Source of the DNA: Chloroflexota bacterium
GTDB taxonomy: Bacteria; Chloroflexota; Anaerolineae; Anaerolineales; Villigracilaceae
Length of the DNA stretch: 64,000 nucleotides
Direction: 5' to 3'
NCBI GenBank assembly: GCA_016191845.1
Contig: JACPVF010000011.1
Span: forward strand, 124,001 to 188,000
In this document: one piece after another, positions 45,322 to 49,625 of the stretch
Layout of the letters: every line of letters starts with the position of its first letter
Numbering within the stretch: position 1 is the first letter of the stretch
Position numbers and translations under genes: made by a program
Notes under the pieces: generated by a model
Database searches by the model: none
Seen by the model: the letters and a program-made list of their open reading frames with translations, nothing else
Told to the model about the DNA's origin: nothing

Positions 45322-46584
45322 TTACGCTTCGTTCTCGCCGCTGGGGGTCTCATCGGGGGGCGCGGCGGGATCGTCCGCTTCGCTGCGGAATTCCTCCGCC
45401 AGCATCTTGAAGTCCTTGTCGGCGAAGGCCGCCGAGTCGACTTTGCGCAGGCTGAGGCCGATGCGGTGCTGGTCATGATCGATGCGGATGACACGCAGGG
45501 TCTTGACTTCGCCTTCCTTGATGGCTTCCTTGGGATGTTCGATGCGATGATCGCTGATCTCAGAGATGTGGATCAGGCCTTCGATGTCGCCTTCGAGGCG
45601 GGCAAAGGCGCCAAACTTGGTCAGACGGGTGATGACACCCTCGACCAACTGACCGACGCTGAACTTGGAAACGCGGGCGGCCCAGGGATCTTCCTGGAGG
45701 GCGCGCATCGACAGACCGATGCGGCGCTTGTCGCGGTCGATGTTGATGACTTTGACCTTGACTTCCTGTCCGACTTCGAGGATCTCCTTGGGATGCTGAA
45801 TGCGGTCCCAGGAGAGTTCGGAGAGGTGAACGAGGCCGTCGGCCCCGTTAATGTTGACGAAGGCGCCGAAATCGGCCAGGCTGGTGACGCGGCCCGTATA
45901 GATCTTGCCCTCTTCCAGTTCGCTGATGACGCGATCCTTGAGGGACTGGCGGGTCTCGTTGCTGGTGGCGCGCTCAGAGAGGATCAAGCGGCGGCGTTCG
46001 CGGTCCACTTCGATGATGCGAACGGAGATCGGGTCACCGACCATCTTCTGCCAGCGTTGCTCGGGCGTGTCGCCCTGGGCCATGGCGCGGCGCGAAGCGC
46101 TGATCTGCGAAGCGGGCACGAAGCCGCGCAATCCGCCGATCGGCACGATCAGGCCGCCCTTGTTGAAGCCGATGACCTTGCTATCCATGACGGTCTCATC
46201 GGCAATCATCTTCTCCACGTTCGCCCAGGAGATTTGCTCCTGCGCGCGCTTGAAGGAAAGGACGACATTCCCGTTGGAATCCTCGGGGTTGACGACATAA
46301 ACGTCAACTTCCTGGCCGACGTGAAGCGCAGCGCGCTCATCATCGGTCAGCTGCTCCAGTTCGCGGCCAGCAATCACGCCTTCAGACTTGGCGCCGATGC
46401 TGACGAGGATCTGGTTGGCACCAATGCTGGCAATCATGCCCTTGCGAATTTCGCCGACCTGAGGAAGGTCCACATTCAGCGATTCACTCTCAAGGAGGGA
46501 TTCCATGCTCTGGTGGTTGGTGGGTTCACCCTGCGGGTTCGCTTCTGCGGCCCCCTGCCCGTTCAGGGCATCAATTTGGTCCAT
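45322..46584 (-). CDS. rpsA: S1 RNA-binding domain protein (ribosomal protein S1-like)
   Basis: The 420-residue protein has four S1 domains in a row after a 40-residue acidic lead. They begin near GEIRKGMIASIGANQILVSI, MDSKVIGFNKGGLIVPIG, GKIYTGRVTSLADFGAFVNI and GQLVEGVITRLTKFGAFARL. Domains 3 and 4 have the strong RNA-binding sequence of bacterial S1. Four-domain S1 homologues replace the six-domain form in many Gram-positive bacteria. The acidic ending is typical. The ATG at 46584 has GGAG upstream; a clear promoter lies just before. Confidence 0.92.
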   Translation of the reverse strand: MDQIDALNGQGAAEANPQGEPTNHQSMESLLESESLNVDLPQVGEIRKGMIASIGANQILVSIGAKSEGVIAGRELEQLTDDERAALHVGQEVDVYVVNPEDSNGNVVLSFKRAQEQISWANVEKMIADETVMDSKVIGFNKGGLIVPIGGLRGFVPASQISASRRAMAQGDTPEQRWQKMVGDPISVRIIEVDRERRRLILSERATSNETRQSLKDRVISELEEGKIYTGRVTSLADFGAFVNINGADGLVHLSELSWDRIQHPKEILEVGQEVKVKVINIDRDKRRIGLSMRALQEDPWAARVSKFSVGQLVEGVITRLTKFGAFARLEGDIEGLIHISEISDHRIEHPKEAIKEGEVKTLRVIRIDHDQHRIGLSLRKVDSAAFADKDFKMLAEEFRSEADDPAAPPDETPSGENEA

Positions 46585-46621
46585 CACTGGCTGACTCCGA
46601 TTTAAAAAATTAGTACGGCTG

Positions 46622-46650
46622 ATTATACAAGTGAATGTAGAAGTTGGCAA
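46622..46650 (-). promoter_or_regulatory. Promoter of the S1-domain gene
   Basis: Read on the minus strand: TTGCCA (46650-46645), 17-bp spacer, TATAAT (46627-46622), 38 bases before the ATG. On the plus strand a TATAAT at 46675-46680 serves the chelatase gene. Confidence 0.8.
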
Positions 46651-46705: not shown

Positions 46706-47806
46706 ATGCCAGCCATTTATCCCTTTACAGCCATCGTCGGACAGGAGCGCATGAAGCGCGCGCTCATTCTCAATGCCGTGGACACCCGCATCGGCGGCGT
46801 GTTGATTCGTGGCGAACGCGGTACCGCCAAGTCGACTGCTTCGCGTTCACTGGCAGCCCTGTTACCACACGTCAAGGTCGTACAGGATTGTCGTTTCGGA
46901 TGCGACCCCGACCGTCCCGCCACGTGGTGCACAGAGTGCAAGGAACGTTTCAGCGCCGGCGGAAAACTCCCCACCGCAGAACGCACCACACCCTTCGTCA
47001 ATCTGCCCGTCTCGGCCACCGAGGATCGCGTGGTTGGCACGCTCGACATCGAGCAGGCCATCCAGAAGGGCGAGCGTCATTTCGAACCTGGCGTGCTGGC
47101 TTCCGCCAACCGCGGACTGCTCTACATCGACGAGGTCAACCTGCTCGACGATCATGTCGTGGACGTGTTGCTGGATTCCGCCGCGATGGGTGTCAACACC
47201 GTCGAACGAGAAGGCATTTCCTTCGCGCATCCCGCCCGTTTCATCCTGGTCGGCACGATGAATCCCGAGGAAGGCGAACTCCGTCCGCAACTGCTCGACC
47301 GCTTCGCCTTGTCGGTGGAGATCGTCGGTATCCGCGAGGCGCGTGAACGCGTGACCATCATGGAGCGCAACCTGTCCTATGAGCGCGATGCCGAGGCTTT
47401 CCGCAAGGATTGGCTCGAGAGAGAGCAAGAACTCTCGAACAAGATCGCCCACGCCCGCGAACTCGTGGACCAGGTCAAGTACACCAGCCGTGACCTGCTC
47501 TCCATCGCCGCACTGACGGCTTCCCTCAACGTGGATGGTCACCGCGCCGATCTGGTCATCCTCAAGGCCGCGCGCGCCCAGGCCGCCTTCGAAGGCCGCA
47601 CCAAGATCAACGATCACGATATTGCCCTGGCCGCCGAATTGGCGCTGCCGCACCGCATCAAGCGCACACCTTTCCAACAGGCCGAGATGACCACCGAACA
47701 GTTGCAGGAACGCATCGAGCAGCTGGCCGGTCAGTCGGTCCCGAACGAGGAAGAGGGCGAGGAGTCTGACTCCAAGCAGGGTGAATCCGAAGAAAAAAAA
47801 ACTTAA
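46706..47806 (+). CDS. chlI: Chelatase AAA+ subunit (ChlI/BchI-like); zero-frame product of a probable chlD frameshift gene
   Basis: The 366-residue zero-frame product is the AAA+ small subunit of a magnesium/cobalt chelatase. Motifs: FTAIVGQERMKRALILNAV at the start, Walker A RGERGTAKST, the DRVVGTLDIEQAI insertion, Walker B GLLYIDEVNLLD, and sensor regions GTMNPEEGELRPQLLDRFAL. The C-terminal 25 residues are acidic (NEEEGEESDSKQGESEEKK), which is like the linker of the medium subunit ChlD and not like a ChlI end. It terminates four bases after an A9 tract, with the VWA frame opening at -1. In non-phototrophs such subunits work with CobN in cobalt insertion for B12; no CobN is in the window. 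Confidence 0.93.
   Translation: MPAIYPFTAIVGQERMKRALILNAVDTRIGGVLIRGERGTAKSTASRSLAALLPHVKVVQDCRFGCDPDRPATWCTECKERFSAGGKLPTAERTTPFVNLPVSATEDRVVGTLDIEQAIQKGERHFEPGVLASANRGLLYIDEVNLLDDHVVDVLLDSAAMGVNTVEREGISFAHPARFILVGTMNPEEGELRPQLLDRFALSVEIVGIREARERVTIMERNLSYERDAEAFRKDWLEREQELSNKIAHARELVDQVKYTSRDLLSIAALTASLNVDGHRADLVILKAARAQAAFEGRTKINDHDIALAAELALPHRIKRTPFQQAEMTTEQLQERIEQLAGQSVPNEEEGEESDSKQGESEEKKT
47778..47806 (+). promoter_or_regulatory. Probable programmed -1 frameshift site in chlD
   Basis: The slippery heptamer A AAA AAA (47794-47800) lies inside an A9 run. The zero-frame stop TAA is at 47804-47806. An SD-like AGGGTG (47778-47783) lies 10 bases upstream, the same spacing range as the stimulator in dnaX. 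After a -1 slip the frame reads AAC TTA AGT CTT GAA GAC GAA and continues without a stop into the VWA domain. Confidence 0.75.
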
Positions 47807-47820
47807 GTCTTGAAGACGAA

Positions 47821-48765
47821 GTGCAGGAAGGTCCCCAGCAGGGCCAGCCTCAACCCATGCCGCAGGATGTGTTCGCACACTCGAACTCAAACTGGTGGGA
47901 AGGCGGGCAAAAGATCAAACCTGGTGAGGCCTTCCTGCCTCGCAAGCTCAACACCCCCCTCGATAAACTAGCCCGCAGACATGCCGGCCGCCGCTCACTC
48001 ACCAAGACCGAGCGCAAGCACGGCCGCTACATCAAAGCGCGCCCCGCAGGCGACAAGCTTGACGACATCGCCTTCGACGCCACTTTCCGCGCCGCCGCCC
48101 CCTTTCAAAAACAACGTACTGAAAAACGCAAGCGCCTGGCTTTCGCCATCGAACGCGGCGACCTGCAGCGCAAGATCCGCGTCAAGCGCGTCTCGAACCT
48201 GGTACTCTTCCTGGTGGATGCCTCCTGGTCGATGGCCGTGGCCGAGCGCATGAACGCCACCAAGGGCGCCATCCTCTCCCTGCTGACGGACGCCTATCAA
48301 CGCCGCGACCGCGTTGGCCTGATCGTCTTCCAGAAGGATCGCGCCACGCTGGTGCTGCCCCCCACCAACTCGGTACAACTGGCCCAGCGCGCGTTGGTGG
48401 ACATCCCCGTCGGCGGCAAGACTCCGCTCTCGGCCGGACTGTTCATGGCCCACGACGTGCTGACTCACGAGAAGCACCTCCACCCCGACGTGGAACCGCT
48501 GCTCATCATCCTGACCGATGGGGCGGGCAACGTCTCGTTGGGGACTCTGCCACCCCAGGAGGAATCTTTCCGCTTCGCCGAGTTGATTGCCAACGAGAAA
48601 ACGCGCTCCGTGGTCATCAATATGGAGCACGCCGCCTTCGACCAGGGCCTGGCCCAGCAGTTGGCGGACCACCTCAAATCACCCTGCTATGCGCTCAGCG
48701 AGTTGAAGGCGGAGAGTCTGTACCACACCGTACGCCAGGAAATGTCCACACCGCAGAAGAAGTAG
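47821..48765 (+). CDS. chlD: Chelatase VWA domain; C-terminal part of ChlD, reached by -1 frameshift or from a GTG start
   Basis: This frame encodes a Gln/Pro-rich linker, a basic segment and a von Willebrand A domain with the MIDAS motif DASWSM, the Thr in GGKTPLSAG and Asp in ILTDGAGN. It corresponds to the C-terminal half of ChlD/BchD, which couples the AAA+ ring to the catalytic chelatase subunit. As a separate gene it would start at GTG 47821, which has no ribosome site, and would lack the AAA+ half that all ChlD proteins have. Joined by the -1 shift the product has 686 residues, the normal ChlD size. A terminator follows. Confidence 0.9.
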   Translation: MQEGPQQGQPQPMPQDVFAHSNSNWWEGGQKIKPGEAFLPRKLNTPLDKLARRHAGRRSLTKTERKHGRYIKARPAGDKLDDIAFDATFRAAAPFQKQRTEKRKRLAFAIERGDLQRKIRVKRVSNLVLFLVDASWSMAVAERMNATKGAILSLLTDAYQRRDRVGLIVFQKDRATLVLPPTNSVQLAQRALVDIPVGGKTPLSAGLFMAHDVLTHEKHLHPDVEPLLIILTDGAGNVSLGTLPPQEESFRFAELIANEKTRSVVINMEHAAFDQGLAQQLADHLKSPCYALSELKAESLYHTVRQEMSTPQKK

Positions 48766-48884: not shown

Positions 48885-49625
48885 ATGTCTGGTTATCGTA
48901 GGAATATCGGAGACGGGCTGGTGGCCCTCTTCAAAAATCGCCGCTTCAACCGCGGCGCGACTTGGGGCCTGATGATTATCGGTGCCCTGCTGGCCTTCGA
49001 GGTCTTCAACTTCAGCACCACCCAATTCGCCCTGCTGGATATGCTCGGCAATCTCAAATTTGCAGGTCTGCGCTGGGCCACCGTGCTGGCCATCGCCTTC
49101 TGCGGCATTGACTTTGCAGGCATCGCGCGCATCTTCACCCCCGAGCAGGGTCGCGACGAGCCCGCCGAGGTCTGGTACCTGTTCGGCGCCTGGCTGCTGG
49201 CGGCCGCCTTCAACGCAGGCCTCACCTGGTGGGGCGTGTCGGTAGCCATCGCCACCCAGGGAAACGTGGCTGGGACCGCCGTGGTCAGTTCCGCCACCAT
49301 GACCAAGGCTGTGCCCGTCATCGTGGCCGTCATGGTCTGGCTGATCCGCATCCTGATCATCGGCACCTTCTCCATGGCAGGCGACCGTCTGTTCACCACC
49401 GACCACAACGCCGTGCGGACCTATCCCACCCGCACGAATCAGTCCGCCCAACAGCCTGTGCTGCGTCCTGCCTCACAGATCCAGCGCCCCGCTGCCAGCA
49501 ATGCCTCGGCCTATCGCCCTGCGCCCAAGCCCGCCCAACAAACATCCTTTACACGGGCCGAACCGACCTATCACAACGTCAACTTTAGCGAACGCAACAA
49601 CCCCAGCGAACACTACGACGCCTGA
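48885..49625 (+). CDS. Four-helix membrane protein under a LexA-like operator
   Basis: The 246-residue protein has four membrane helices in the first 165 residues (ATWGLMIIGALLAFEVFNF; ATVLAIAFCGIDFAGIARIF; LFGAWLLAAAFNAGLTWWGV; VIVAVMVWLIRILIIGTFSM) and a disordered Pro/Gln/Asn-rich tail of about 75 residues. AAGGAGG is five bases before the ATG. It precedes a lytic transglycosylase by 65 bases with no terminator. I do not recognise the family. Membrane protein-transglycosylase pairs are usual in conjugation or phage-like modules, but no other such gene is nearby. Confidence 0.75.
   Translation: MSGYRRNIGDGLVALFKNRRFNRGATWGLMIIGALLAFEVFNFSTTQFALLDMLGNLKFAGLRWATVLAIAFCGIDFAGIARIFTPEQGRDEPAEVWYLFGAWLLAAAFNAGLTWWGVSVAIATQGNVAGTAVVSSATMTKAVPVIVAVMVWLIRILIIGTFSMAGDRLFTTDHNAVRTYPTRTNQSAQQPVLRPASQIQRPAASNASAYRPAPKPAQQTSFTRAEPTYHNVNFSERNNPSEHYDA

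Follow-up and report, generated by a model that had tools for sequence, protein, structure and literature searches.

A conserved slippery A run in a chlD-like gene of Chloroflexota, predicted to yield both partners of an AAA+/VWA machine

In this study, we found that a chlD-like gene in the window (the whole stretch of 64,000 nucleotides analysed here, from a Chloroflexota genome) ends its ChlI-like reading frame just past a run of nine A residues, while a second frame, displaced by -1, is open across the run and encodes a VWA domain. This feature is genuine and falls within an established group, the frameshifting chlD genes. We consider it very likely that this single gene supplies, through slippage on the run, both partners of an AAA+/VWA machine, a predicted ring that would act on a client other than a tetrapyrrole. 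The original prediction had proposed a slippage site expected to give ChlI-like and ChlD-like products from one gene, and this proposal is upheld by the conservation of the site among relatives. Its further proposal, that the products serve as chelatase subunits together with CobN, is wrong for the window genome, within the reach of the PF02514 model.

The gene, its two frames and its domains

The coordinates and the register predicted for the ChlI-like frame and for the heptamer A AAA AAA are borne out by the sequence (Table 1). The -1 frame has a TGA at 47782-47784 and is then open through the VWA part, as had been claimed, and the joined product comes on recomputation to the predicted 686 residues (365 + 321), with a Gln/Pro-rich linker between the ChlI-like part and the VWA domain. 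Both frames that do not lead to the long product end within four codons of the heptamer, at TAA 47804 and TGA 47811. In the window, whose GC content is 0.596, the A9 is the sole A/T run of eight or more, and thus it is not a matter of chance.

Table 1. Features of the chlD-like locus, in window positions
Feature	Position	Strand	Details
S1-domain protein, rpsA-like, divergent neighbour	45322..46650	-	Pfam S1, 4 stretches
ChlI-like AAA+ ATPase frame (0 frame)	46706..47806	+	ATG 46706 to TAA 47804-47806; 366 aa, short product; Pfam and NCBIfam matches
SD-like AGGGTG	47778..47783	+	10 bases 5' of the heptamer; weak, unconserved
A9 run with slippery heptamer A AAA AAA at 47794-47800	47793..47801	+	Sequence and relatives; heptamer in 0-frame register
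VWA part of the long ChlD-like product, -1 frame	47800..48765	+	Pfam VWA_2, VWA
Third-frame (+1) stop TGA	47811..47813	+	3 codons on
Junction-spanning peptide predicted for the joined product			KKNLSLEDEVQEG

Pfam assigns AAA_lid_2, Mg_chelatase, AAA_5 and MCM to the ChlI part, and VWA_2 and VWA to the remainder of the long product. Among NCBIfam models, the ChlI part matches TIGR02442 best (516.9 bits) and TIGR02030 second (427.3 bits). The joined 686-aa product, with 788 bits, passes the TIGR02442 cut-off of 779.45 bits, which the halves on their own fail (516.9 and 260.3). The chlorophyll-type equivalogs remain below their curated scores, TIGR02030 with 427.3 of 466.95 bits and TIGR02031 with 440.6 of 499.55. 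Furthermore, a profile made from the ChlI part and 13 relatives matches the solved Mg-chelatase I subunits 8osf, 6l8d and 1g8p. In the translation, GERGTAKST is presumably the Walker A motif, a Walker B motif also seems visible, and we take DASWS to be MIDAS-like.

Conservation of the slippery site among relatives

The junction set was composed of the order-level loci, 80 named loci (nearly all from Chloroflexota MAGs, many labelled Anaerolineales or Anaerolineae), 20 further loci and 119 fetched ones. Of these 280 analysed loci, 18 were removed as identical in ChlI-part DNA, which left 262 distinct copies including the window; the class-level junctions were taken from among the matches listed. 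Four copies without a detectable VWA part and four in a +1 relation were set aside before counting. Among the order-level genomes, 57 of 61 contain a copy at least 62% identical, the exceptions being G058, whose closest relative of the gene is a 51% paralogue, and G022, G038 and G050, without a copy that close.

When the A run was aligned across relatives, a check the original prediction had suggested, the frame relation and the heptamer proved to be kept. The 262 distinct copies, whose class-level part comes from among the matches listed, include 219 in the -1 relation and 35 in frame (fused), and the proportion of fused copies cannot be read as their frequency, because 28 of 40 fetched loci had been picked for a long open frame and junctions were taken only among the matches listed. 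An in-register heptamer is present in 218 of the 219 -1 copies and in 29 of the 35 fused ones, 247 of 254 together. Its place is specific: in 179 distinct -1 or in-frame copies, an in-register A_AAA_AAR occurs at 207 of 10,574 codon positions in the linker, at 18 of 49,308 in the VWA part and at a single one of 60,748 in the ChlI part. Lysine codons within the heptamer are AAA rather than AAG by 343 to 1 (172 copies); elsewhere in the ChlI part the ratio is 960 to 805. The complete genome of Pelolinea submarina strain MO-CFX1 (L134) has the same arrangement with A7. One locus outside the family listing (L137) has both an A7 run (A AAA AAC) and an A9, and the former was set aside in favour of the latter.

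The seven copies without the A heptamer, namely six fused ones (families f11, f23 and f39) and one -1 copy (L224), have no linker A run of six or more. Thus, two products are not made by slippage everywhere, and the six fused copies indicate that a need for two products is not universal. The f11 copy (L091) is a 50% paralogue, and in five class genomes with heptamer-less fused copies (G068, G103, G134, G118 and G145) no further ChlI match at 1e-60 was found among the best candidates, up to six for each.

Some copies depart from the common pattern. An additional A6 run lies out of register in the linker of four heptamer-bearing copies. Two diverged copies (L089 and L090, in genomes G058 and G045), which share about 51% identity with the ChlI part, lack an A run and have the VWA part in the +1 relation; in L089 the VWA frame has an ATG 16 bases past the stop, preceded by AGGAG, and both may be two ordinary coupled genes. 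L156 (A11) and L223 (A10) have their VWA frame at +1 relative to that of ChlI, which reflects either indel errors or slippage the other way. A gene of the same type with a slippery site is also present on a contig labelled Halieaceae (L162), which is probably misbinned.

Slippage by ribosome or polymerase, and changes of polarity

Straight reading of the 0 frame would give the ChlI-like ATPase of 366 aa. For the long product, either the tRNA-Lys pair would slip one base back on A AAA AAA, or RNA polymerase would add an A on the A9; decoding would then enter the linker and the VWA domain and yield the ChlD-like protein of 686 aa. Slippage in the window gene is predicted, as is its efficiency; in chlD-family cassettes from other genera than the window's, shifting measured in E. 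coli was 63, 40 and 10% with 11, 9 and 7 A, respectively (PMC3711429). The window copy has features expected of both routes, an X XXY YYZ heptamer in codon register for -1 ribosomal frameshifting, and a run of at least nine A/T with stops in both other frames for transcriptional slippage. Judged by these features, both may act.

The short runs speak for the ribosome. All 40 copies whose longest run is A7 have it in the one register that makes a heptamer, and the sole A6 copy reads A AAA AAG. These 41 copies, spread over 12 family groups, are thus all in exact codon register, which fits decoding in codons and hence ribosomal slippage. The heptamer is also present in all 16 copies with A8; in each of these the run starts at the second codon base, though a start at the third would also yield a heptamer.

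Programmed transcriptional slippage, in which the polymerase slips on A9 and produces mRNAs with 8, 10 or 11 A, one frame of which encodes the long protein, would lead to the same two products with a different slipping machine, and for the window copy we rate it as a serious possibility not far short of even. Thermus dnaX, with a run of 9 A (PMC3711429), has been described as an example of transcriptional slippage in which each of the two remaining frames is closed by a stop (PMC5009743), and this is the arrangement of the window copy, where both stops fall within four codons. Furthermore, an early third-frame stop, within 11 codons, occurs in 177 of 190 copies with at least nine A, in 14 of 16 with eight and in 20 of 41 with seven or fewer, whereas codon shuffling gives expectations of 0.20-0.47. 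For the long-run copies, transcriptional slippage is thereby at least as good a fit as -1 ribosomal frameshifting. The difference between copies with at least nine and at most eight A gives a Fisher p of 1e-8 if relatedness is ignored. However, in 10 independent pairs on the tree, run length and third-frame stops changed the same way in 2.7 and the other way in 0.5, with a median p of 0.5, and the link is not significant; and the 41 copies with A6 or A7, all in codon register, argue that a ribosomal route exists in this gene family.

No conserved stimulator was found across the copies examined, either as an SD or as a downstream structure. The SD-like AGGGTG that the original prediction had noted upstream of the heptamer is indeed present, with a duplex energy of -6.9 kcal/mol (z -2.0 relative to windows from the same gene), but it is not conserved: of 247 heptamer-bearing copies, 4 have it in the 22 bases preceding the site, and in family f1 it occurs in 2 of 40, the window and its same-genus relative only. 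Upstream SD duplexes in general have mean z values of -0.60 and -1.05 in -1 and fused copies, respectively, in a linker rich in Glu codons, and against codon shuffles the spacing profile has an excess at gaps 0-1 (0.256 and 0.186 versus 0.110 and 0.080), with slighter excesses at gaps of 10, 15 and 18. The downstream fold of the window copy is no better than that of shuffles (z -0.25), and 60-nt windows compared with the same genes give mean z values of 0.07 for 143 -1 copies and -0.28 for 29 fused ones.

The fused copies seem to hide the same site with the opposite outcome. In all 29 that bear the heptamer, the -1 frame stops within 11 codons, against a codon-shuffle expectation of 0.29. Chance was considered for these stops and is disfavoured: with one conservative value for each of 12 family groups, the P(<=11) values multiply to 7e-6, and Fisher's method on the observed distances gives p 0.008. 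Their +1 frame also stops early (0.62 versus 0.22). Given these early -1 stops, a slip would make the short product, which is the polarity of E. coli dnaX. The site of family f38 is AAA AAA AAT GA in 4 of 4 copies, with the stop right at the slip, like E. coli dnaX, whose stop lies directly at the slip site (PMC5009743). The two states may also interchange between close relatives. Within genus g15, the run changes from A10 in L064 to A8 in L057 and the following 25 bases are identical; with this change the long frame moves from -1 to 0, and TAA and TGA swap roles. On a FastTree tree of 244 heptamer-bearing copies (3 of the 247 were left out as too short), at least 12 changes between the split and the fused state were counted, and a smaller tree set gave 13, or 11 for heptamer-bearing copies, all of these counts being minima.

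Fused homologues have been reported in Chloroflexus aggregans and Rubrobacter, the slip site going unmentioned there (PMC3711429). No mention of a fused chlD with a hidden slip site was found in the literature searched, which included the available parts of PMC9227772 and PMC3711429, and neither opposite-polarity fused copies nor third-frame stops were seen in the accessible portions of the fs-chlD literature, Antonov 2020 (msaa081) being outside the scope of both searches. Apparently, then, fused copies with a hidden heptamer and an early -1 stop are new, as are the changes of polarity; the comparative polarity and third-frame patterns may be the new part of this work.

A wider reading, which we put forward tentatively and regard as rather more doubtful than probable, is that in the Anaerolineae the output of a short and a long chlID product is selected and the route to it is free, ribosomal at seven A or fewer in exact register and transcriptional at longer runs whose two wrong frames are closed by stops, for a non-tetrapyrrole client and with no large subunit; the polarity would have changed at least 12 times while the heptamer was retained. 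Its odds are lowered by the A8 copies, which side with the long runs in their third-frame stops (14 of 16). If it were true, a dnaX-like site would lie hidden in many chlD genes of ordinary, unbroken appearance.

Other readings, partner subunit and client

That the VWA frame is instead an ordinary second gene, started on its own or by translational coupling, seems very improbable. Start codons for such a gene exist: the -1 frame of the window offers GTG 47821, ATG 47857 and GTG 47869, the linker of 91 of 143 heptamer-bearing -1 copies contains a start codon (with an SD-like duplex in 38 of 143), and the diverged copy L089 looks so arranged. The original prediction had credited the -1 frame with only a GTG lacking an SD; GTG 47821 is the first start there, and none of the three has an SD at the threshold used. 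Moreover, an ATG with an SD occurs in only 14 of 143 copies, ATG and GTG are both wholly absent in 56 of 144, and a start lies within 10 bases of the stop in 10 of 144. Two ordinary genes would also leave the heptamer and the fused copies unexplained.

Less probable still is that the window products are the subunits of an aerobic cobalt chelatase working with CobN, despite the name of the TIGR02442 family, putative cobaltochelatase, and the published chlD frameshifting in carriers of CobN (PMC9227772). The search for cobN that the original prediction had called for returned no PF02514 (CobN/ChlH) match in the window genome, which is 99% complete, nor in any of 61 order-level genomes, the window genome and 60 relatives; controls match in 5 of 14. 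Thus, the large subunit required by a cobalt or a ChlIDH magnesium chelatase was not found, and nor was a pathway that would supply a tetrapyrrole: the window genome has no match to HemB (ALAD), which is present in 21 of 61 order-level and 124 of 298 class genomes, and none to CbiC, present in 2 of 61 order-level genomes, and its single TP_methylase is the 16S rRNA methyltransferase TIGR00096. The prediction that the locus is non-phototrophic apparently holds, as there is no ChlH. In the class sample, PF02514 matches 36 of 298 genomes, 35 of them above the cut-off, and the ChlI query matches 267 of 298 at 1e-60, though some of these may have only the paralogue of about 40% identity, with E-values near 1e-60. 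Carriers of the site that also have CobN/ChlH include G063, G092 and G224 (-1) and G104 and G247 (fused), and in class genomes of this kind a chelatase role is possible.

An assembly or sequencing error, to which homopolymers are prone, was rejected as a practically negligible explanation, since the window's frame relation recurs in its same-genus relative (G001) and in 217 further distinct copies, among which a complete isolate genome has it with A7.

Frameshifting in chlD was found and measured in 2013 (PMC3711429), and the window gene resembles the fs-chlD genes (Antonov 2013; Kuznetsov, Milenkin, Antonov 2022) in its A_AAA_AAR site, its -1 shift to a ChlI plus VWA fusion and its 0-frame product of ChlI size. 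Among these, it had been said to fit exactly the case of B12-producing bacteria; it fits instead the Chloroflexi with fs-chlD and no large subunit described in PMC9227772. That paper, in the part available, reports fs-chlD in Anaerolineaceae without CobN, names as cases without the large subunit Brevefilum fermentans and, with an additional chlI, Anaerolinea thermophila among others, and calls their function unexplored. The window genome differs in having no separate ChlI, and HemB is lacking too. The suggested genome search for a separate ChlI gave no second match above 30% identity, the two weak hits being to proteins with AAA_3 and bpMoxR domains. Most of the order-level relatives have another ChlI-like gene, 36-42% identical, which is unmatched in the window genome.

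The gene also resembles dnaX (tau/gamma), in which one gene with an A-rich site gives a short and a long product, and for which both polarities are known (PMC3711429, PMC5009743). The window copy has the rarer polarity, a slip leading to the long product, and an unrelated function.

Because PF02514, HemB and CbiC are unmatched and the sole TP_methylase is of the rRNA type, the proteins appear, as judged from gene content, to function independently of CobN and of tetrapyrroles made by the cell itself. In our reading, the ChlI-like and ChlD-like products would assemble into a ChlI:ChlD ring, and with the large subunit and the tetrapyrrole pathway apparently absent, this ring would act on another client. 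NorQ:NorD, a MoxR AAA+/VWA pair, combines an AAA+ ring with a VWA partner for metal insertion into a protein (PMC13036017). The analogy is functional only, and unlike that pair, both partners here would come from one gene; by this analogy we infer an AAA+/VWA machine that acts on a protein, perhaps for metal insertion.

The gene neighbourhood was considered as a source of an operon partner, and no neighbour cluster in 61 loci points to a client. The commonest ORF cluster is rpsA-like (at least 27 loci), followed by an upstream ORF without Pfam match (at least 16 of 61), an M19 dipeptidase (at least 15), a histidine kinase (at least 12) and one further cluster (at least 10); other clusters, the gene itself and antisense frames aside, occur in fewer. 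These are lower bounds because longer antisense frames masked genes in some loci. A downstream ORF of 246 aa without Pfam match (48885-49625) has cluster relatives in 7 of 61 loci.

In summary, a recoding site is kept across the class, in many genomes without the chelatase core, and this speaks for a function of the ChlI:ChlD pair itself. To judge by the fused copies, some recoding escapes annotation, and an intact chlD may still make two proteins. Finally, the changes of polarity, together with the split by run length, provide a natural series for comparing ribosomal with transcriptional slippage within one gene family.
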